From: Gemmatimonadaceae bacterium
Lineage (GTDB): Bacteria; Gemmatimonadota; Gemmatimonadetes; Gemmatimonadales; Gemmatimonadaceae
NCBI GenBank assembly: GCA_019637445.1
Contig: JAHBVS010000001.1
Span: forward strand, 1,833,586 to 1,897,585
Direction: 5' to 3'
Length of the DNA: 64,000 nt
Position numbers and translations under genes: made by a program
Shown here: in pieces, positions 1,604 to 26,684 of the stretch
How positions within the stretch are numbered: position 1 is the stretch's first letter
Layout: the number at the start of each line of letters is the position of its first letter
Notes under the pieces: model-generated
What the model was told of the DNA's origin: nothing
Seen by the model: the letters and a program-made list of their open reading frames with translations, nothing else
Database searches by the model: none

Positions 1604-4087
1604 ATGACAGCACCCGCACCAGAGCCAATCGGCTACGACCCCACGGCGATCGAGGCGCGATGGCGGCAGCAGTGGGCCGATCGCGGCACGCATCGCAGCG
1701 ACATCGCGAACGGCGAACGTCCGTTCTACGCGTTGATGATGTTTCCCTACCCGTCGGCCGAAGGCCTGCACGTGGGGAATCTGTTCGCGTTCACCGGTTG
1801 TGATATCTATGCGCGCTTCCAGCGCCTGCAAGGTCACACGGTGTTCGAGCCGCTGGGCTACGACGCGTTCGGCATCCACTCGGAGAACTTCGCCCTGAAG
1901 GTCGGCGTGCATCCGATGGAGTTGATCCCGCGGAACATCGCGAACTTCCGTCGGCAGTTGGACCGCGCGGGCCTGATGGTGGACTGGTCGCGCTCGGTGG
2001 ATACAACCGATCCAGCGTACTACAAGTGGACACAGTGGGTCTTCCTGCAGCTGTACAAGCAGGGGCTTGCGTACAAGAAGGCCGCGGCGGTGAACTGGTG
2101 CCCGTCCTGCAAGACGGTGCTGGCCAACGAGCAGGTGATCAATGGCGAATGCGAGCGCTGTGGCACGCAGGTGGAGCAGCGCTTTCTGGAGCAGTGGTTC
2201 TTCCGGATCTCGGACTATTCCAAGCGGCTGCTCGACAATCTCGAGACGCTGGACTGGTCGGCCACCACGAAGCAGGCCCAGCGCAATTGGATTGGCCGCT
2301 CCGAAGGTGCGGCGCTGCGCTTCCGCGTGATCGACCCGCTGACCGACGCGGGCAGCTCGGCGGTGTCCGTCACCACCGAGATGTCGGTGGGGACGGCGGA
2401 GATCGAGGTCTTCACCACGCGTCCGGACACGATCTTCGGTGCGACGTACCTGGTGTTGGCGCCGGAGCATCCCTTGGTCGATCAGCTCACCACGCCGCAG
2501 CAGGAGGGCGTGGTGCGCGAGTATCGTGCGGCCGCGGCCAAGCAGGATTTGGTGAGCCGCAAGACTACGAAGGAGAAGACGGGCGAGTTCACGGGCTCGT
2601 ACGCGGTGAATCCAGCCACGCAGGAGCTGATCCCGATCTGGATCGCCGACTACGTGCTGATGGAGTACGGCACGGGTGCGATCATGGCGGTGCCAGGGCA
2701 CGACGAGCGCGACTTTGAGTTTGCCACGAAGTTCGAGCTGCCGATTGTCCGCGTGGTGGCGGGTCCGGGTCAGGACGCGCACACGCCGTTCGATGGCGCG
2801 GCGTACGTGGACGACGGCGTGCTGGTGAACTCCAAGCAGTTCGACGGACTCGGGGTGGACGCGGGCAAGACGCAGGTCACGTCTTGGCTGGCAGCGATGC
2901 ACGCAGGCAAGTCGGTGACGAACTACCGCCTGCACGACTGGTGCATCTCGCGGCAGCGCTATTGGGGCCCGCCAATCCCAATCATCTACTGCGACAGCTG
3001 CGGCACTGTGCCGGTCCCCGAGGACCAGTTGCCGGTGGTGCTGCCGAACATCCCGGACTTCAAGCCGGACGATTCGGGCATCTCCCCGCTGGCGCGGCAC
3101 GAAGAGTGGTTCCACGTGCCCTGCCCGCAGTGCGGCAAGCAGGCGCGGCGCGAGACGGACGTGAGCGACACCTTCCTCGACAGCGCCTGGTACTTCCTGC
3201 GCTACCCGAGCGTGGGCCACGACGACGTGCCCTTCGACTCGACGATCACGAAGAAGTGGTTGCCGGTCACGACGTACATCGGCGGCAACGAGCACGCGGT
3301 GCTGCACCTGCTGTACTCGCGCTTCATCACGATGGTGCTGCACGATGCCAAGCTCCTGGACTTCGAGGAGCCGTTCACGAAGTTCCGGGCGCACGGACTG
3401 ATCATCCGCGAGGGCGCGAAGATGTCGAAGTCGCGCGGCAACGTGGTGAACCCGGACGAGTACATCGACCAATGGGGCGCGGATTCCTTCCGCACCTACC
3501 TGATGTTCCTCGGTCCCTTCGAGGAGGGCGGCGACTTCCGCGACTCGGGCATCAGCGGTGTAAAGCGTTTCCTGGACCGCCTCTGGGCGTCCGTGCGCGA
3601 CCGCGACGACGCGGCTCCGGCCGACCCCGAGGTGCTGCGCAAGCTGCACGCGACGATCAAGAAGGTCGGTGAGGACATCCCATCGCTCAGCTACAACACG
3701 GCGATCGCGGCGATGATGGAGTACATCAACGTCGTGCGCCGCGGAGAGCGGGTGCCAGCGCGAGCGGAGGTGGAGCCGCTGGTGCAGATGGTCTCGCCCT
3801 TTGCGCCGCATATCGCCGAGGAGCTGTGGGAGATGCTCGGGCATTCGAGCAGCGTGTTTGAAGCGCGTTGGCCGTCCTTCGACCCTTCAATGCTCGAGTC
3901 CGACACGATTGAGCTGGTGGTGCAGGTGTCGGGCAAGACGCGCGGCAAGGTCGTGGTGCCGAAGTCGGTGACCCAGGATCAAGCGCTGGCGGTGGCGAAG
4001 GCCGATGCGCAGATCGGGAAGTTCATCACTGGGGAGCCGAAGAAGGTCATCCTTGTGCCGGGGCGGCTCTTGAACGTCGTGGTTTGA
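1604..4087 (+). CDS. leuS: Leucyl-tRNA synthetase
   Basis: 827 residues, close to the usual bacterial length. It charges tRNA-Leu with leucine in the cytoplasm. The class I signature is HVGN at residues 56-59 and the second signature is KMSKS at about 606-610 (GAKMSKSRGNVVNPDEY). The editing (CP1) domain carries TTRPDTIFGATYLVLAPEHP and YGTGAIMAVPGHDERDFEF, the site that removes mischarged amino acids. Zinc-type Cys pairs (CPSC...CERCG and CDSCG...CPQCG) are present. The C-terminal domain ends in VSGKTRGKVVVP and VPGRLLNVVV, as in other LeuRS. The start ATG lies 23 bases after a TAAATT box (1575-1580) that could be a -10 element. The reading frame shows no defect. Confidence 0.98.
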   Translation: MTAPAPEPIGYDPTAIEARWRQQWADRGTHRSDIANGERPFYALMMFPYPSAEGLHVGNLFAFTGCDIYARFQRLQGHTVFEPLGYDAFGIHSENFALKVGVHPMELIPRNIANFRRQLDRAGLMVDWSRSVDTTDPAYYKWTQWVFLQLYKQGLAYKKAAAVNWCPSCKTVLANEQVINGECERCGTQVEQRFLEQWFFRISDYSKRLLDNLETLDWSATTKQAQRNWIGRSEGAALRFRVIDPLTDAGSSAVSVTTEMSVGTAEIEVFTTRPDTIFGATYLVLAPEHPLVDQLTTPQQEGVVREYRAAAAKQDLVSRKTTKEKTGEFTGSYAVNPATQELIPIWIADYVLMEYGTGAIMAVPGHDERDFEFATKFELPIVRVVAGPGQDAHTPFDGAAYVDDGVLVNSKQFDGLGVDAGKTQVTSWLAAMHAGKSVTNYRLHDWCISRQRYWGPPIPIIYCDSCGTVPVPEDQLPVVLPNIPDFKPDDSGISPLARHEEWFHVPCPQCGKQARRETDVSDTFLDSAWYFLRYPSVGHDDVPFDSTITKKWLPVTTYIGGNEHAVLHLLYSRFITMVLHDAKLLDFEEPFTKFRAHGLIIREGAKMSKSRGNVVNPDEYIDQWGADSFRTYLMFLGPFEEGGDFRDSGISGVKRFLDRLWASVRDRDDAAPADPEVLRKLHATIKKVGEDIPSLSYNTAIAAMMEYINVVRRGERVPARAEVEPLVQMVSPFAPHIAEELWEMLGHSSSVFEARWPSFDPSMLESDTIELVVQVSGKTRGKVVVPKSVTQDQALAVAKADAQIGKFITGEPKKVILVPGRLLNVVV

Positions 4088-4092
4088 GTAGG

Positions 4093-4305
4093 AACTGCAA
4101 CGGCTTGCCACAGAGGCACAGAGACACAGAGGGTTTCGTGGCGTAGCGGATATCTCTCTGTGTCTTCTTGAACGACACTTCTAAGGGGGCTCGGCGGACA
4201 GATCTGTCCGCCGAGCCCCCTTAGAAGTTGCTGTTGGAATAGGCACAGAGGCCTACTCGCGCTCCGACACCTCTGTGTCTCTGTGCCTCTGTGGCAAAGC
4301 AGTTA
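4093..4305. repeat. CACAGAG-armed inverted-repeat element, copy 1 (long form)
   Basis: A 213-bp element fills the gap between the convergent leuS and M14 genes. Its outer arms are a perfect 28-bp inverted repeat: 4105-4132 (core CCACAGAGGCACAGAGACAC) and 4270-4297. Beyond the arms the ends read AACTGC (left) and GCAGTTA (right), also inverted. In the centre is a separate perfect 52-bp palindrome (4177-4228). Copy 3 has the same architecture and shares the right-hand stretch around CCTACTCGCG. Copy 2 has only the outer arms. The TAA stop of the M14 gene (4303-4305) is the last three bases of the element. No coding potential is seen inside. Confidence 0.9.
4177..4228. terminator. Perfect 52-bp palindrome, candidate bidirectional terminator
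   Basis: The left arm (with AAGGGGGCTCGGCGGACAGA) is the exact reverse complement of the right arm and has no loop bases. In RNA from either strand it would fold into a very strong hairpin between the 3' ends of leuS and the M14 peptidase gene. The usual run of U after the stem is weak, so intrinsic termination is an inference. An mRNA 3'-end stabiliser, or a recombination or transposition structure of the surrounding repeat, are alternatives. Confidence 0.5.
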
Positions 4306-6147
4306 CCGCGATCTCAAAGTCGACACCCCACCCTTAACGGCGTCAGCAGTGACGGTAAACGGCCCACGTCCCTCCACGATCCACTTCACGCGCACGATGC
4401 CTTGGCCCGCGATGTTCGGCACGCGCATCGTCGCCGGATCGCGCTTCTGCTCCGTGGACTCGCCGGTGAGCGGATTGTCGATCGTGAAGCCCGCAATCAC
4501 ACGACCACCGGCAAGCGTGATGTGGTTCGGACGGGTGATGCGGTTCTCGAGATCCTGCTGCGTGTGCGTCGGCGCGATGCGACGGTTCACGATTACCGCC
4601 GTCACCTCCGTGAGGTTGCCGCCCAGTGAACGCGTCGTCACCGAGTCCACCTCCACCAGCGGCATCTGTGAGACCTGGTAGAGCGTGAACATCATGTTGC
4701 GATGGCCGTCGCTCTGCAGCATGAAGCCTGGCTCCACGCGGCCGAAGTTCTTCTTCATCCCGCCCACTTCGACCTTGCCGAACTGCGGGTGGTCGACTTC
4801 CTGCCATTCCACCATCGCCTCGCCCATCAACAGCAGTTGGTTGAAGCGCGACTCGGTGGTCTGGTACTGGCGGTTGCGCGGGTCGCCGAAGAAGCCGCCG
4901 CCACCACGCTCCGGCTGCTTGTAGAAGTACAGGAACGGCGTCCACAGCTCGTTGCTGAACGTCAGGATGCCGCGCGCGCCGTAGAACCAGTCGAGCTCGC
5001 CGCCCCAGACGGTGTACAGGTCCTTCCACACGATCATGTAGCGGTAGCCCGGCAGCACTTCCTCGCCGATGGCACCGATCTGGTCGAACACGCGCACGTC
5101 GGCCGGTCGGTACTCGTCCTGCGGCACGCCGGGGCCACGCAGCAGCATGCCGCCGCTGTTGTGGTAGCTCTGGGCGCCGGCGATGTTCTGGTGCGCGATC
5201 ACGAAGTTCATGATGTTGCGCGTCTCGATCAGCGACCCCGGATAGCGGTCCGCGCCGCCCTGCACGTACTGCGGCGCCCAGCGCCAGGGCCAGTTGCGGT
5301 TCGGGTCGTAGCGGCCGGGGCCGTCCTCGTTCACGCTGCCGTCGCCGTCGGCGTCGTAGCCTTCCTGGCCCAGCAGGTCATACTCGCCCTGCTCGCCGGG
5401 CAGCACGGGGATCATCAAGCGCGGATCCTCCGGCGAGACGCGGAAGCGGCCGTTCGGATTGCGGCGCCGCATCTGCGTGATGTGGCCGTCGCCGTTCAGG
5501 TCGCCGATGCCGTCTTCGTCGATCTTGCCGTCACCGTCATCGTCGCGCGGCGCGAGTCCGGAACGCGGCGAGCTCGCGTTGTTGGGCTCGTGGATGTAGT
5601 GGTCGCGCCCGTCCGGGTTGATGCTGGGCACGATGTAGAACGTGTAGTTGCGCAGCAGCGAGTCCACGGCTGGCACGCGGTCGGCCATCTCCGCGAGGTA
5701 CCACGCCGTATACAGCGAGAACTCGGCGCCCTGGATCTCGTTCGCGTGGATGTTGCCGTCGATCCACATCGCCGGCTTGCGGTCGGCGTTGCCCACGCGA
5801 TGGTCGGTCACCGTGAGCACGAACATGTCGCGGCCCTGCGTGCTGCGGCCGATGCTGCCGAGCTTCACACGGTCGGGGTGCGCGGAGGCGAGCCGGCGCG
5901 CGATCTCCAGCAGGCCGGCGTGATCATAGAATCGGTCCCAGGAGACGGCGACCTTGGGGTTTGGCGGAGAGCCGAGTGCGGCGAGCGCGCCGGCCACTGG
6001 TACCTGCGTGGCGTTCGCCGCCGGAGGCGCGGTACGGATCTGCTGCGCGGCCAGCGCCGCAGGGAGGAGCAGGGCTGCCGTAGCAGCCAGAAAACGCGTG
6101 TACATGGAAGCTCGGGACACGCGCGGCAATACACGATGTGTGGTCAT
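4303..6147 (-). CDS. Secreted M14-family zinc carboxypeptidase with Ca-binding-type loops
   Basis: 614 residues. A hydrophobic signal segment (FLAATAALLLPAALA) follows a second possible start, MYTRF, at residue 15 (6105). The zinc site is intact: H134 and E137 in GNIHANEIQGAE, and H329 in AQSYHNSGG. The likely catalytic Glu is E400 in TFSNELW. Substrate-side motifs PSINPDGRD and DPNRNWPW are also present. Between them sit three Asp-rich loops (DDDGDGKIDEDG, DLNGDGHIT, DADGDGSVNEDG) resembling EF-hand/dockerin calcium loops. The C-terminal 140 residues look beta-rich. It would remove residues from peptides outside the cytoplasm. It follows the 6155-7858 paralogue with a 7-bp gap, and GAGG lies 10 bases before the ATG, so the two are probably co-translated. 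The TAA stop is supplied by the repeat element. Confidence 0.93.
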   Translation of the reverse strand: MTTHRVLPRVSRASMYTRFLAATAALLLPAALAAQQIRTAPPAANATQVPVAGALAALGSPPNPKVAVSWDRFYDHAGLLEIARRLASAHPDRVKLGSIGRSTQGRDMFVLTVTDHRVGNADRKPAMWIDGNIHANEIQGAEFSLYTAWYLAEMADRVPAVDSLLRNYTFYIVPSINPDGRDHYIHEPNNASSPRSGLAPRDDDGDGKIDEDGIGDLNGDGHITQMRRRNPNGRFRVSPEDPRLMIPVLPGEQGEYDLLGQEGYDADGDGSVNEDGPGRYDPNRNWPWRWAPQYVQGGADRYPGSLIETRNIMNFVIAHQNIAGAQSYHNSGGMLLRGPGVPQDEYRPADVRVFDQIGAIGEEVLPGYRYMIVWKDLYTVWGGELDWFYGARGILTFSNELWTPFLYFYKQPERGGGGFFGDPRNRQYQTTESRFNQLLLMGEAMVEWQEVDHPQFGKVEVGGMKKNFGRVEPGFMLQSDGHRNMMFTLYQVSQMPLVEVDSVTTRSLGGNLTEVTAVIVNRRIAPTHTQQDLENRITRPNHITLAGGRVIAGFTIDNPLTGESTEQKRDPATMRVPNIAGQGIVRVKWIVEGRGPFTVTADAVKGGVSTLRSR

Positions 6148-6154
6148 CGGTTGC

Positions 6155-7858
6155 TTACCTCGCGCGAAGGGTGATGGTCTGCGTGCTCAGCCCGGCGTGC
6201 GGCGAGCCCACGGTGAGTTGCAGCGTCGAGCCGGCCGCGCCGACGACGACCCATTCGAGCGTCTGCGAGGCGCCGCTGCCGCGGAGGGCATTGATGTACT
6301 CGATGCGTCGTCCGCTCTGGATGCTCTGCTGGTTGCCCAGCGTGAGCTCCGCACGAATGCGCAGCGGCAGCCGCGAGCGGACGCCGATCGCGGCGTTGCT
6401 GGGGAGGAAGCCGTCGTTCTGCACGTCCGCCGTGATGCGATACACGCGCGGTCCGAGCTCGGTGACCTTGATGCGCTGCGCCGTGACGCTGGGCAGCATG
6501 CCTGCGAGCTGCACCACGAACGCCGTGTGCTTGGAAGCGAGCGAATCCAGCTCGTTGCCCGGCGGATTGAGCGTGGCGAAGGGCGCGAAGCCGCCGACCT
6601 CGACGGACTCGCCGTCAATCGTGTAGCCGGAGACCGGCGTCCATTCGACGAAGCCAGCCGGACGATTGGCCTTCATCCAGCGGTATTCGTTGCGCTCGGC
6701 GGCGATGGGATCCGGCGACGGTGCTTTGCGCGCCGCCGCGGTGTCGGCCGGCGCCTTGCCTGGCCACCAGACCCGCGATCCAAAGGCAAACCGACCCATA
6801 TGGAAGTACGACCACGAGAGCGGATCACCCTGCTCGGCAGCGCTCGCCGGACCATCGGACCAACCCGTCGTCGCCTTGAAGCGCTTCGACACCTCAGCGA
6901 ACCAGCCGTTGTCATCAGGAAGCGGGGAGCTGAAGGGGCCGCCCGCCGAGGTGCCCTGCGGCGCGCCGGCAATGCCAGCCACGCGGCGGCCTTCCCATGG
7001 CTTCAGCAGGTTGTCCTGCATGCCGAGCACGTAGACGGCCGCGATATGGTCGTGCGTGGAGACGAACTCTGCCACGGCGCGCGACTCGTCCGCGCTGAAG
7101 GGGTGCAGGCCCGCGTGCTCCGAGAAGAAGCGGTAGTCGTTGGCGAAGTTGCGCGAGATGTCCGTGCCGCCGGGGCCATCCTCGTTGTAGTCGTCGTCGC
7201 CGTCGTTGTCGCGGCCTTCGACCAGCAGGCGATAGATGCCGCGCTCACCCTTGGTGGCGTCGGCGCGGCGCATCAGTGCGGGATCGACCGCGTCCGGAAT
7301 CCACACGCCATTCGGGGCCTTCACGCGCATCATCGTGATGAGGCCGTCACCGTTCAGGTCGTCCGGCGCGTCCTCGTCGATCGCGTGGTCGCGGTCCTCG
7401 TCACTGGCGGTGTCGTTGCCCGTACGCTCGGTGCGCAGCGTCGTGAAGAACGCCTCGGTGGCGTCGGGATTGATGCGCGGCATGACGTAGACGGTGTTGC
7501 GCGACAGCATCTCCGTGATGGCGGCATCGTTGCCGTGACGGCGCGCCAGGTCGCGCACGATGCGCAGGGCGACCTCGCTTGAACTGATCTGCGGCCCGTA
7601 GGCGCCGGCGAGAATGAGCAGCGCGGGGCGCTCCTCATTGCCGCCGAGTCGCACGACCTGCACGGGACGCCGTCCCGGCGAGGTGGCGATCGTCGTGACG
7701 CGCACGAGCGAGGACTTGGCGCGCGCGATAGAGTCAAGCGCTGCGGTAAGTCGTGCTGATGTGTGGTAGCCGTCCGTGGGGCGCGCCTGGGCGCCAGCCG
7801 GTAGCGAGAGTGCGGCGAGCAGCAGCGCCGCCCTGCCGATGGAGCGAATGCGTGGCAT
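6155..7858 (-). CDS. Secreted M14-like protein with all catalytic positions lost (predicted pseudoenzyme)
   Basis: 567 residues with a signal peptide (AALLLAALSLPAGAQA). It is a clear paralogue of its downstream neighbour: MPRINPD matches PSINPDG, the Asp-rich loops are kept (DEDRDHAIDEDA, DLNGDGLIT, DNDGDDDYNEDGPG), and SRNFAND replaces NRNWPW. The zinc motif HANE is replaced by YGPQ (residues 87-90). The third ligand His aligns with Leu278 in YVLGMQDN. The position of the catalytic Glu reads FGSRVWW, an Arg. A working peptidase is therefore very unlikely. It may bind peptides, or act as a partner or regulator of the active enzyme it is co-transcribed with. It is first in the two-gene operon, with a TAGAAT box at 7880-7885. 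The reading frame is uninterrupted over its whole length, which argues against simple decay. Confidence 0.85.
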   Translation of the reverse strand: MPRIRSIGRAALLLAALSLPAGAQARPTDGYHTSARLTAALDSIARAKSSLVRVTTIATSPGRRPVQVVRLGGNEERPALLILAGAYGPQISSSEVALRIVRDLARRHGNDAAITEMLSRNTVYVMPRINPDATEAFFTTLRTERTGNDTASDEDRDHAIDEDAPDDLNGDGLITMMRVKAPNGVWIPDAVDPALMRRADATKGERGIYRLLVEGRDNDGDDDYNEDGPGGTDISRNFANDYRFFSEHAGLHPFSADESRAVAEFVSTHDHIAAVYVLGMQDNLLKPWEGRRVAGIAGAPQGTSAGGPFSSPLPDDNGWFAEVSKRFKATTGWSDGPASAAEQGDPLSWSYFHMGRFAFGSRVWWPGKAPADTAAARKAPSPDPIAAERNEYRWMKANRPAGFVEWTPVSGYTIDGESVEVGGFAPFATLNPPGNELDSLASKHTAFVVQLAGMLPSVTAQRIKVTELGPRVYRITADVQNDGFLPSNAAIGVRSRLPLRIRAELTLGNQQSIQSGRRIEYINALRGSGASQTLEWVVVGAAGSTLQLTVGSPHAGLSTQTITLRAR

Positions 7859-8018: not shown

Positions 8019-8603
8019 CTAAATGAGCGCCCGAGACCTCTTGGCAAGCGCGCGCGCCGCCATGATGCCGCCGACGAAGCCGCCGAAATGCGCCTGCCAG
8101 CTGATGCCGGGTTGCCCGGGCATCACGCCGAGCACCACGCCGCCCCATAGCACGGTGACCAACACGCTGATCGCGATGGCGCCGAGTGAGCGTTGATACC
8201 AGCCGGCGAGCATCAGGAAGCCGAGGTAACCGAACACAACGCCGCTGGCACCGATATGCACACTGCCGGGCGCGCCGAGTGTCCAGGCGAAGATGCCCGC
8301 GCCGAGCATCGAGAAGATCGTCACAGGCACGAAGTGCTTCGCGTCGCGCAGCATCACCAGCCAGCCGAGGATGAGCAACGGGACCGTGTTGGCGATCAAG
8401 TGCTGCGGGGAGCCGTGGAGGAACGGCGCGAAGAAGATGCCCCAGAGGCCCTCGACGCTGCGCGGGCGGATGCCGAAGCGTGTGATGGCACCGCCGCTGG
8501 CCAGCTGGGCGCCGAAACCGGCCCACACGGCGGTCACGGAGCCGCCGAGCACCGTGGCCTGTTGCTTGAGCGTGCGGGCCGCCGCACGGACGACCGTCGT
8601 CAT
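8019..8603 (-). CDS. Rhomboid-family intramembrane serine protease
   Basis: 194 residues with about six hydrophobic segments. The catalytic dyad is visible: Ser120 in HIGASGVVFGYLG and His172 in QAHFGGFVGG. The L1-loop motif HGSPQHLIANT (63-73), conserved in rhomboids, is also present. Rhomboids cleave other proteins inside the membrane plane. The ATG overlaps the stop of the upstream site-2 protease gene by 4 bp (ATGA), so translation of the two is coupled. The N-terminus is short and there is no extra cytoplasmic domain. The substrate is unknown. Confident at family level. Confidence 0.92.
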   Translation of the reverse strand: MTTVVRAAARTLKQQATVLGGSVTAVWAGFGAQLASGGAITRFGIRPRSVEGLWGIFFAPFLHGSPQHLIANTVPLLILGWLVMLRDAKHFVPVTIFSMLGAGIFAWTLGAPGSVHIGASGVVFGYLGFLMLAGWYQRSLGAIAISVLVTVLWGGVVLGVMPGQPGISWQAHFGGFVGGIMAARALAKRSRALI

Positions 8604-9718
8604 TGCGGGACCCGCTGGGTGGCGCGGCGCAGCAGCAAGTACTCCATCACGTTCTCCTGCGTGAGCAATCCGATGAGGCGTCCCTCCTGCACGACCGGCA
8701 GAGCCCGCTGCCGCGACTGCATCAGGCGCTCGAGCGCGGTCTCGGGCGGGAGGCTCGCCTCGAGTGTGGGGCCATCGCGGCGCATCACGTCTGCCACGGG
8801 ATGGTCGCGACCGTGATCGTGCAGGCCGCGCACGAGGTCGTCGCGCGAGAGCATGCCGAGCAGTCGGTCGCCATCGACGACGGGGAAGTCGGCCTGGAAG
8901 CCATCGACGACCAGCTGTGCGGCTGTCGAGAGCGTATCACTGGGCCGCAGGATGCGCAGGTCCGTCATGGTCACACTACGCAGCGTCACGCCCTCAAGTG
9001 CCAACTGCGCGCGCACCTGTGCGGCCTCTCCCGCGCCGGCGAGCCACACGAATCCGGCGATCAGCACCAACAGCGGGCTGTTCACGACGAACACCGCAAC
9101 GACGCCGAAGAGCAGCGCGAAGCCACGTCCCACGCGCGCGGCGGCCTCCGTGGCGCGGAGGTAGTCCTTCCAGCGCATAGCCAGCGCGGCGCGCAGCATG
9201 CGGCCACCATCCATCGGAAAGGCCGGCAGCAGGTTGAAGGCGATCAACCAGACGTTGATGCCGACGAGGCGTGTGGCCAAGCGACGGAGGTCAAAGCTGG
9301 GATCGGGCGCCACGAGCCCGCCGATGCCATTGAGCGGCGCGAATCCACCAGTGGCCAGCAGCGCCGCACCGATCGCGAGCGCCAGCACGACGTTCACCGC
9401 CGGTCCCGCGATGGCGATGACCAACTCCTGCCGTGGCTCGCGGGGGATGCGCTCGAGCCGCGCGAGGCCGCCGATCGGCAGCAGCGTGATGTCGCGCGTG
9501 ACCACGCCGTAGCGTCGCGCTGCCAGTGCGTGCCCGAGCTCGTGCAGCACGACGATCAGGAATACCAGCAGCACCGTGCCGACCAACGAGATGGCGCCGC
9601 GCGGATCGCCGTCCAGCTGCCACTGCGCGAAGGCGATCCACGCCAGGAGCAGCGGGAACGTGAGGTGCACACGCAGGGGAATGCCGGCGAGCCGGCCGAT
9701 GGGCCAGGACCAACGCAT
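8600..9718 (-). CDS. Site-2 protease-like M50 metalloprotease with two CBS domains
   Basis: 372 residues from the ATG at 9718; an in-frame start at 9766 is possible but crowds the divergent gene. The zinc motif HELGH is at residues 59-63, and the second signature NLLPAFPMDGGRM begins at 162. Six or so membrane helices fill residues 15-230. A pair of CBS domains (about 248-305 and 310-365) follows; these usually bind adenine nucleotides and would tune activity. The fold matches CBS-type S2P enzymes, which cleave membrane-spanning regulators or remnants of cleaved proteins. The start is six bases after a TACCTT box on its strand and lacks a Shine-Dalgarno, so the message may be leaderless. It is first in the operon with the rhomboid gene. 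Confidence 0.92.
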   Translation of the reverse strand: MRWSWPIGRLAGIPLRVHLTFPLLLAWIAFAQWQLDGDPRGAISLVGTVLLVFLIVVLHELGHALAARRYGVVTRDITLLPIGGLARLERIPREPRQELVIAIAGPAVNVVLALAIGAALLATGGFAPLNGIGGLVAPDPSFDLRRLATRLVGINVWLIAFNLLPAFPMDGGRMLRAALAMRWKDYLRATEAAARVGRGFALLFGVVAVFVVNSPLLVLIAGFVWLAGAGEAAQVRAQLALEGVTLRSVTMTDLRILRPSDTLSTAAQLVVDGFQADFPVVDGDRLLGMLSRDDLVRGLHDHGRDHPVADVMRRDGPTLEASLPPETALERLMQSRQRALPVVQEGRLIGLLTQENVMEYLLLRRATQRVPQ

Positions 9719-9724
9719 AGCTGC

Positions 9725-9730
9725 AAGGTA
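9725..9730 (-). promoter_or_regulatory. Candidate leaderless-type -10 box for the S2P-rhomboid operon
   Basis: On the minus strand it reads TACCTT, followed by exactly six bases (GCAGCT) and the ATG at 9718. The spacing is the same as at 11082 and 48607. The box itself is less typical, so support comes mainly from the repeated spacing. Confidence 0.35.
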
Positions 9731-9766
9731 GTGGTGGAGCGGCGCACGGAGTGCCAGACTGTGCAC

Positions 9767-23936: not shown

Positions 23937-26684
23937 CTAGAAACTGCTGCCCAGCAGCACCGCATTCAGCACGAGCCGGTCGAGCGCGCGCCACCAGCCC
24001 CGGAACATCGGGTCAGAGGTGAACATCACCACGTTGCCGCGCCCGACCCGCTCCTGCGCGATGAACACGCTGCCCCGCAGCTTGCGCTCGGAGTTGTTGG
24101 GGAACACAAAGCCGCCGCGCCGCAGCGTGCCCTCGGTGGGGAACACCGCCACGTTCCCGCCGTCCTTCGACAGCGTGTAGAACGAGCTGCCGCCCACGAG
24201 CACGGGGAATCGCCGCTCCTCCATGCCGAGCGTCACCCAGCTCGTCATGTCCAGCACGACATCGAAGTGGCTACCCGGCAGGTCCGCGATGTCCTCGGCG
24301 CAGGCGTTCGGACTGGCCGTCGTGCGCAGTGAGTCCAGCGGCGCGAGCTCGGCGGGCGCGGGCTTCAGGTCCTTCTTCTCCTCGCACTGGATGCGACGCA
24401 CCGACGTGAGCCCGACGTCCTCGCGCGTCGCCCACTGCGTGGCGCCGCCGAAGGTCACCAGCGCGCCGCCGCCCTCGACCCAACGCTTCAGGTTGGCGCC
24501 GTTGCCCAGGCGTCCAAGCCCGCCGCTGGGGATGATGATCGCGTTGAACGCCGAGAGGTCGCCGCCGAGTGCGTCGGCGGAGATGGGCGTGAACTTGAGG
24601 CCATAGCGCTGCTCCAGGTTCCACCACAGCGCGCCATAGCTGGTCTGCGAGATGCCCGCGTCGCCGACGATGGCGATCTTCGGTTCCTCGAGCGCGACCA
24701 CGACTCCCGAGCCCGTGCCGTACTGTGCCGACTCCGGGAAGGCGGTGTTCACGCCACGCACCTCGACGCCGGACTCACGCGCGAGTGCGTCGATACGCGC
24801 AGCCATCGACGCATCGTTGCGGCCGACGCGCGCCACCCAGGTGCCGCGCGGCCAGTTCGTCGCGCCGGTCTGGATCGGCTCGGCGGCAATCGACACACGG
24901 TAGCCCTCCTGCAGCAGGTGTGCGGCCAGCTTGGCCGCGCCGTGTCGGTCGTTCTTCCACAGGAATGCCGAACGCGCATCGCGGCCGTCGACGATGCCAC
25001 CGTTGATGGCGTGCGGCAGCACTTCGCCATTCAGGCGCACACCGTTAGTGAGCGAGAGCGCCGTGGCGTTCACCGACGGCGCGTCCTCGGTCCAATAGGC
25101 ATCGACACCGAAGGCAATCGGCAGCGCCCAGGCGGAGATGTCGTAGAACTCGTAGAACTCTGAATCGTTGGCGTTGCGGGAGCGCTGCTGGTTGCGCTGG
25201 AACTTGTCGACCTGCGCCTGGGCAAAGACGGGGTCGAGCTCGGGGTCTGGCTCAAGCACGGCCTTGGCGAGCTTGCCCTGCGGCTGGGCCAGGTCGACGA
25301 TGTAGGAGCCAGCCGGGAACTGCCGCGCCCGCGCGCCGTCACTGCGGTAGCTCGCGGCCTTGCTGCTGTTGAACGACGCATCGGCGCGCGACACCTCGAT
25401 GCCGGCGCGAAGCAGCGCGGCCGCGAGTTCGGCGGCGCGCGCAGGGTCGTTGCCTGGCAGGAACACCACGCGCTTCATGGTGCCGTTGCGGCCCTCGGTC
25501 ACGGCGCGCGAGCGGAAGGCGGCGTAGTCCCGCACCAATCCGCGCACGGAGTCCGCCGAGGTCTCGAAGGTGGACACAGCGGCCACGAAGTGCTTGCTGA
25601 TGCCGTCGCGCAGCGAGAGCAGCGTGCCGTCCTCGCGGCGCTTCAGCAGCGCGGGGCCACCGTCGGTTTCATACGTCGTGCCCATCGCGCCCGTCAGCGA
25701 GGGCCAGGAGTCGTAGTAGCCGGGATAGTAGAGGTCGAAGGCATCACGCACGAAGTACAGCCAGCCATACCGATCGAAGGCCGCTGCGTTGCCCCGGCCA
25801 ATCGCCTCCGACCACTTGTAGGGCCACTGCGAGATGTTCGCGTTCACCGGCCGCGCCGCCGGCGCCATGTAGAACGTGCTCGTGTAGCCGTGCAGGTCGG
25901 CGGTGATCATCGGGTGCCAGCGCAGCATGCCACCCACGATGGCCTGCACCTCGCGCTGCGTCATCGCCATCAGGTCGCGGTTCATGTCGAACCGGTAGTG
26001 GTTGAAGCGCCCGCTGATGCTCCACGGCTGGTTGCGCTGCTGCTCGAGCGAGAGGCGCTCCGGACTGCCGACGGCGATGGAGTTGCTCCACACCGAGAAG
26101 CGCTCGTGGCCGTCGGGGTTGGAGCTGGGATTGATGATCACCAGCGCATTGCGCAGCCGCGCCAGCGTGGCCGGGTCCTCGGAGGCCGCGAAGTGATACA
26201 GCAGCTGCATCGAGGCCTCGAAGCCCGGCACCTCGTCGCCGTGCACGGAGCCGGAGAACCACACCACGGTCGGCGTACGCGCAATCACCGCATCAAGCTG
26301 TGCCTGCGTGGCACCGCGCGGGTCGGCGATGCGGTCCAGGTCCGCCTTGATGGCGTCCAGCCGCGCGATGTTCTCCGCCGTGCTCACGATGTAGATGCGC
26401 ATCGTGCGCCCTTCGTTCGTGACGCCGATCTCCTCGACGCGCACGCGGTCCTGCGCCGCCTGGGCGATGGCCAGCAACACGCGCTCCTGCTGGTGGTACT
26501 GCGTGTGGCGCGCGCCGACGTTGTAGCCGAGCACCGACTCCGGCCGCGGGACGCTGCTCCGGTAGGGGCCGCCGGAGTAGAACGAGAAGTTCCGGTCGTC
26601 GCGGAGGGAGTCGAGGGGGGCGCGCTGGGCGGGAAGCGCGGGGGCCAGCAGTGCAAGAGAGAGTGCGGCGGCGATCAAACGCAT
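23937..26684 (-). CDS. Secreted M14 metallocarboxypeptidase with a C-terminal amidotransferase-like domain
   Basis: 915 residues with a signal peptide (LIAAALSLALLAPALPAQ). The zinc site is complete: H148 and E151 in SGSVHGDEVPGFE, and H265 in TADLHGYTST. E339 in GTTYETDGG is the likely catalytic Glu. NPSSNPDGHERF and FDMNRDLMA are the substrate-site motifs. Residues from about 655 (KIAIVGDAGISQTSYGALWW ... AIIIPSGGLGRL ... WVEGGGALVTFGGATQW) resemble the class I glutamine amidotransferase / ThuA-like flavodoxin fold, without an obvious nucleophile Cys elbow. It is much longer than a plain M14 enzyme. It sits downstream of kup, with a repeat-like spacer between them. Peptidase activity is probable; the role of the extra domain is unknown. 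Confidence 0.9.
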   Translation of the reverse strand: MRLIAAALSLALLAPALPAQRAPLDSLRDDRNFSFYSGGPYRSSVPRPESVLGYNVGARHTQYHQQERVLLAIAQAAQDRVRVEEIGVTNEGRTMRIYIVSTAENIARLDAIKADLDRIADPRGATQAQLDAVIARTPTVVWFSGSVHGDEVPGFEASMQLLYHFAASEDPATLARLRNALVIINPSSNPDGHERFSVWSNSIAVGSPERLSLEQQRNQPWSISGRFNHYRFDMNRDLMAMTQREVQAIVGGMLRWHPMITADLHGYTSTFYMAPAARPVNANISQWPYKWSEAIGRGNAAAFDRYGWLYFVRDAFDLYYPGYYDSWPSLTGAMGTTYETDGGPALLKRREDGTLLSLRDGISKHFVAAVSTFETSADSVRGLVRDYAAFRSRAVTEGRNGTMKRVVFLPGNDPARAAELAAALLRAGIEVSRADASFNSSKAASYRSDGARARQFPAGSYIVDLAQPQGKLAKAVLEPDPELDPVFAQAQVDKFQRNQQRSRNANDSEFYEFYDISAWALPIAFGVDAYWTEDAPSVNATALSLTNGVRLNGEVLPHAINGGIVDGRDARSAFLWKNDRHGAAKLAAHLLQEGYRVSIAAEPIQTGATNWPRGTWVARVGRNDASMAARIDALARESGVEVRGVNTAFPESAQYGTGSGVVVALEEPKIAIVGDAGISQTSYGALWWNLEQRYGLKFTPISADALGGDLSAFNAIIIPSGGLGRLGNGANLKRWVEGGGALVTFGGATQWATREDVGLTSVRRIQCEEKKDLKPAPAELAPLDSLRTTASPNACAEDIADLPGSHFDVVLDMTSWVTLGMEERRFPVLVGGSSFYTLSKDGGNVAVFPTEGTLRRGGFVFPNNSERKLRGSVFIAQERVGRGNVVMFTSDPMFRGWWRALDRLVLNAVLLGSSF

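Follow-up and report, generated by a model that had tools for sequence, protein, structure and literature searches.

A presumably exported M14 metallopeptidase and a dedicated, catalytically inactive paralogue, encoded side by side in the analysed stretch of Gemmatimonadaceae DNA (64,000 nucleotides, in the following called the window), probably act as one functional unit. Judged by its orthologues, the inactive protein, whose gene lies upstream, is an ancient, selected pseudoenzyme. By analogy with the alpha/beta pairs of the peptidase family M16B, it most likely serves the active peptidase as an obligate partner without catalysis of its own. The Gemmatimonadota, to which the pair belongs, are bacteria of soil and water. 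The following features were located in the window:

6155..7858, minus strand: pseudo-M14 gene; 567 aa protein of M14 fold without zinc ligands and catalytic Glu (ORF, Pfam, model, residue table, omega)
7784..7858, minus strand: putative Sec signal peptide of the pseudo-M14 protein, MPRIRSIGRAALLLAALSLPAGAQA (by inspection)
7589..7600, minus strand: YGPQ (residues 87-90), replacing the HxxE zinc motif (alignment and orthologues; HxxE in no orthologue)
7370..7402, minus strand: Asp-rich loop 1 (residues 153-163); D153, D155, D157, E162 and D163 invariant in the upstream-orthologue alignment
7337..7360, minus strand: Asp-rich loop 2, DLNGDGLI (residues 167-174); D167, G172 and I174 invariant in the same alignment
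7178..7210, minus strand: Asp-rich loop 3 (residues 217-227); D217, D219, D221, E226 and D227 invariant in the same alignment
7007..7024, minus strand: GMQDNL (residues 279-284), aligned with HNSGGM, the zinc His motif of the partner; DN constant throughout the inactive set
6773..6775, minus strand: Arg362, replacing the catalytic Glu270; most orthologues of the near clade have Arg, the others Pro, Gln, Ser or Thr, and none has Glu
6148..6154, minus strand: intergenic gap of 7 bp (-4 to +13 bp in 49 measured pairs)
4303..6147, minus strand: partner gene; 614 aa M14 protein with complete catalytic residues (ORF, Pfam, residues, omega)
5737..5748, minus strand: HANE zinc motif of the active partner (H134, E137); His and Glu invariant in all active orthologues
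5293..5301, minus strand: NRN (283-285), substrate carboxylate-binding Asn/Arg of the active partner (orthologue alignment)
5161..5163, minus strand: His329, third zinc ligand of the active partner (orthologue alignment)
4948..4950, minus strand: catalytic Glu400 of the active partner (orthologue alignment)

Both ORFs were found on the same strand where an earlier note on this DNA had placed them, with an intact frame and the short gap that it described. With a family cut-off of 21.6 bits, both proteins match PF00246 (Peptidase_M14), the upstream one with 76.8 bits (2.8e-21) and the downstream one with 134.6 bits (7.1e-39). For the upstream protein, descent from family M14 is indicated by this sequence match and by the fold. 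An AlphaFold model based on 13 orthologues (mean pLDDT 72.8, pTM 0.75) has M14 carboxypeptidases as its best structural matches, among them carboxypeptidase T (3prt) with a Z score of 25.6 over 258 residues at 3.1 Å and 20% identity. Of the solved structures, carboxypeptidase T from Thermoactinomyces, likewise a bacterial M14 fold, matches best in both structure and sequence; it differs from the pseudo-M14 protein in being active and, over its approximately 323 solved residues, in having neither the extra C-terminal part nor the Asp-rich insertions. We know of no inactive partner of carboxypeptidase T. By inspection, both proteins of the pair look as if they start with an N-terminal Sec signal peptide. 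Among the pseudo-M14 orthologues a basic start, a hydrophobic stretch and an AxA-like end recur, and in the sequence of the active partner the putative signal peptide is followed by a short linker, with no recognisable M14 activation domain.

In the numbering of bovine CPA, which is used here for the active-site positions, H69, E72, N144, R145, H196 and E270 are complete in 49 of 50 downstream orthologues, the one exception (G270) being truncated at a contig end short of E270. The downstream protein is accordingly predicted from its residues to be an active M14 peptidase. In the alignment to this partner, the upstream protein carries Tyr at position 69, Gln at 72, Ser at 144, Gly at 196 and Arg at 270, so that none of the three zinc ligands (H69, E72 and H196) and no catalytic Glu is left. 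The changes from HANE to YGPQ and from the catalytic Glu to Arg, both claimed in the earlier note, are borne out by this alignment. Its third exchange, from the zinc His to Leu, holds for the loss of the His and fails for the replacing residue, since the aligned position is Gly279, one after the Leu that was named. Both proteins have the three Asp-rich loops that it had described, and most of the Asp residues in these loops are invariant across orthologues.

For the comparison across the class, 53 upstream-gene and 51 downstream-gene orthologues were drawn from genus, family, order and class. In every readable upstream orthologue (about 50, from several families of the class), position 196 is occupied by Gly or Ser and position 270 by Arg, Pro, Gln, Ser or Thr. 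Three types of motif stand in for HxxE: orthologues from the genus of the window carry Y/FGPQ, those from neighbouring genera xGPH, and those from distant families ExxH or SxxH, in which the last residue is sometimes Gln or Arg. The His at position 69 is kept in three upstream orthologues, and the full ligand set in none. Orthologues of the upstream gene with normal zinc ligands, which would have spoken against a pseudoenzyme, were thus searched for and amounted to zero of about 50, and the partner keeps the full set. The same loss in about 50 orthologues shows that neither chance nor an assembly fault is behind it. Since the zinc site is lost in all readable upstream sequences and fully retained downstream, the inactive state is, as read from these alignments, older than the expansion of the pair across the class. 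One deviating motif, SAPT at the zinc site of a single orthologue (G008), turned out to be a contig-end artefact; the other contig of this genome has YGQQ. At distant loci, including L144, L146 and L148, HxxE is swapped to ExxH (e.g., NLEGDH), which might still hold a metal. At further distant loci, among them L166, L167, L168 and L170, the open frames of the pseudo-M14 genes run far upstream of the M14 match.

The former zinc site also carries a new conserved element. After the zinc His, the active proteins have an invariant Gly-Gly (HNSGGM; GG332-333 in 100%), whereas the inactive ones have an invariant Asp-Asn (GxxDNL; D282 and N283 in 100% of the full-length orthologues). It appears that the former active site was rebuilt around this Asp-Asn and then held, which fits a binding role. 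The distant inactive clades retain the substrate-carboxylate Arg145, for which several species in the genus of the window and in nearby genera have Ile, Lys, Ala or Ser; use of this carboxylate contact is therefore not general among the inactive proteins.

Selection on both genes was estimated with a pairwise maximum-likelihood codon model, leaving out the widest pairs, in which dS is saturated. For the inactive gene, the closest pair gave a dN/dS of 0.033 at a dS of 0.94, with a likelihood-ratio statistic of 407 against omega = 1, and wider pairs inside the genus gave 0.05-0.09. The active gene ranged from 0.025 to 0.076. Relative to its partner, the inactive protein evolves faster by a factor of about 1.5 and is still clearly constrained; an inactive form common to the orthologues thus coincides with purifying selection, as in a conserved pseudoenzyme. 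The faster evolution and the loss of all four key residues are what a decaying duplicate would display, and an assembly artefact could likewise be invoked. Such an origin is nevertheless hardly conceivable: values near 1 were looked for, as the earlier note had proposed, and dN/dS was 0.03-0.09, while the gene is intact in about 50 genomes from several families. Relaxed selection on a pseudogene was ruled out on these grounds. The core proposal of the earlier note, a selected pseudoenzyme tied to an active partner, came through both the zinc-ligand and the dN/dS test.

The link between the two genes is equally strict in their distribution. Active orthologues are set apart by a score gap (388 bits against 269 bits for the next paralogue). 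Among 149 relatives, both genes occur in the same 15 genomes and one alone in none; in a sample of the phylum, 48 of 395 genomes have the active orthologue, with the inactive ORF directly upstream in all 48. In total the inactive gene lies immediately upstream in all 51 genomes with an active orthologue, and hundreds of relatives have neither. Only three inactive genes (G002, G356 and G291) are without a partner on the same contig; all three are at contig ends, and in G002 the start of the active gene is still visible. The start-to-stop distance stays within the range given above in 49 of 49 measured pairs, and this tight spacing suggests translational coupling. Other M14 paralogues, examined at six loci of the same or related genomes, are each without an M14 neighbour. 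The presence of the pair is patchy even inside the genus, which implies that the two genes are gained and lost together. The whole-genome search for the pair covered the Gemmatimonadota. Outside the phylum, a plasmid search returned one haloarchaeal single M14 gene without an M14 neighbour, and in a contig search beyond the phylum the only match was one Gemmatimonadaceae record.

In the protein trees, the active sequences form one group with full support and the inactive ones form one or two deep groups, compatible with a single origin; the deepest branches are poorly resolved. The distance matrices of 44 complete pairs correlate with r = 0.967, a value to be compared with a maximum of 0.19 over 2000 shuffles, and the two gene trees have 28 of 41 splits in common. 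To judge from these mirrored trees, the two genes share a long common history. Mirrored trees alone do not demonstrate contact, because linked genes that are inherited together follow one species tree. Co-occurrence, constant order and spacing, and mirrored trees all tie the upstream gene to the active one, as had been supposed.

Just upstream of the pair lie, overlapping by 4 bp, a rhomboid protease gene (8019-8603, minus strand) and an M50/CBS site-2-protease-like gene (8600-9766, minus strand), so that four genes of protease families (M50/CBS, rhomboid and the M14 pair) follow each other on the same strand. A rhomboid gene was found upstream of the pair in three relatives of the same genus, at a distance of about 2-3 kb; the loci examined from more distant genomes showed none. 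For these two reasons the rhomboid gene was not regarded as part of the unit, and a wider operon with rhomboid and M50 was rejected. The genome of the window (G000) has several further M14 matches, one of them inside the window at approximately 25872-26480 (minus strand). At another locus (L059, G095:C2:172000-181000), an M14 paralogue (ORF 3916-5763, minus strand) carries DADE, with Asp in place of the first zinc His, and keeps the other catalytic residues.

The two genes share a reading frame, with one stop codon between them, in five near genomes and also in a few distant ones. The single stop between the genes of G012 was read through for a fused AlphaFold model with 8 paired rows in the alignment; a larger alignment was dropped since the distant active rows were misaligned. 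Both halves folded (mean pLDDT 79.2), and the overall pTM of 0.54, obtained from this shallow 8-row alignment and without an interface score, is expected when the mutual placement of the halves is uncertain. No confident interface was predicted in this model with its shallow alignment.

Several readings of the pair have to be weighed against this background. Were the unit to work as we propose, both proteins would be exported together and would form a heteromer with zinc chemistry on one subunit only. The pseudo-subunit, its zinc site rebuilt around the fixed Asp-Asn, might complete or gate the substrate site, recognise or present the substrate, or stabilise the enzyme, a role modelled on the alpha subunits of M16B peptidases. 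The more specific version, a class-wide obligate two-subunit M14 peptidase whose rebuilt pseudo-active site binds substrate and presents it to the active subunit, is put forward tentatively, with somewhat less than even chances. Residual catalysis by the upstream protein through a rewired site seems very improbable. The ExxH motif of distant orthologues and the fixed Asp282 of the invariant DN motif could jointly bind a metal, but the proteins of the window and its genus have Tyr or Phe and Gln, neither His nor Glu, at the HxxE positions, His196 is always Gly or Ser, Glu270 is always lost, and no replacement ligand set is common to all orthologues.

Co-transcription and co-occurrence can also reflect a shared pathway without contact. 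In such a pathway the pseudo-M14 protein could act on its own, binding peptides, peptidoglycan or some other exported ligand, a reading with which the lack of a confident interface in the fused model and the binding of collagen and other proteins by animal M14 pseudopeptidases (PMC11266112) would agree. Yet the inactive gene is never found without this particular active gene save at contig ends, and always adjacent in the same order, and we regard an independent protein as rather improbable. Somewhat better placed, and still unlikely, is a dedicated inhibitor, chaperone or pro-domain-like foldase that acts transiently during export or folding and forms no lasting subunit. Its upstream position, by which it would be translated first, the tight coupling and the missing activation domain of the active protein speak for such a helper; a simple inhibitor, however, would need neither the full size of a paralogue nor its conserved Asp-rich loops and a rebuilt pocket motif that is itself conserved.

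The preferred reading, a non-catalytic partner subunit, has its closest parallels in family M16B. MPP consists of one subunit with and one without a zinc motif, the zinc-less alpha subunit being essential, and prokaryotic M16B alpha and beta subunits are encoded in two-gene operons (PMC11266112). In Thermus thermophilus TTHA1264/TTHA1265, a protein that is monomeric and inactive alone forms an active heterodimer with the product of the neighbouring gene (PMC12731061). As in MPP, SPH2681/SPH2682, TTHA1264/TTHA1265 and AlbEF, the two proteins are homologous and of similar size, with adjacent genes as in the bacterial examples (PMC11266112, PMC12731061), and the pair has the same arrangement of adjacent homologous genes, one without a metal site, that always occur together. 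M16B enzymes differ in their unrelated clamshell fold and HxxEH motif, and their heterodimer is demonstrated, while that of the M14 pair is proposed. Membership of the pair in M16B itself was rejected in view of its M14 fold and PF00246 match in place of the M16 fold and HxxEH.

Within the M14 fold, the pair resembles domain III of animal carboxypeptidase D, also an inactive M14-fold domain beside active M14 domains. This domain has H69, A72, D196, Q127, T145 and Y270, nearly all active-site residues being lost; it is thought to help the two active domains and was proposed to bind or present substrate (PMC11266112). In carboxypeptidase D, a eukaryotic membrane protein, domain III is covalently joined to the two active domains, in contrast to the two separate bacterial genes with Asp-rich loops found here. 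AEBP1, CPXM1, CPXM2 and yeast and fungal Ecm14 likewise combine an M14 fold with the loss of catalytic or substrate-binding residues. They are eukaryotic, keep H69 and E72 and are not paired in an operon with one active partner, whereas the upstream protein has lost all three ligands and Glu270. Together with domain III of carboxypeptidase D, these eukaryotic proteins are the only M14 pseudopeptidases in a review on inactive metallopeptidases (PMC11266112). In a literature search that covered mostly open-access papers, neither a report of a bacterial active/inactive M14 gene pair nor a paper on M14 carboxypeptidases in Gemmatimonadetes was found.

M14 pseudopeptidases have been discussed almost entirely in eukaryotes, and a compact bacterial two-gene version that is never split would offer a tractable system. 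The pair could teach what an inactive carboxypeptidase domain adds to an active one, and it would carry the warning that the active enzyme may not work if expressed alone. Should the two-subunit reading be true, the pair would be the first heteromeric M14 enzyme from bacteria and, with its separate genes, a counterpart to domain III of carboxypeptidase D.
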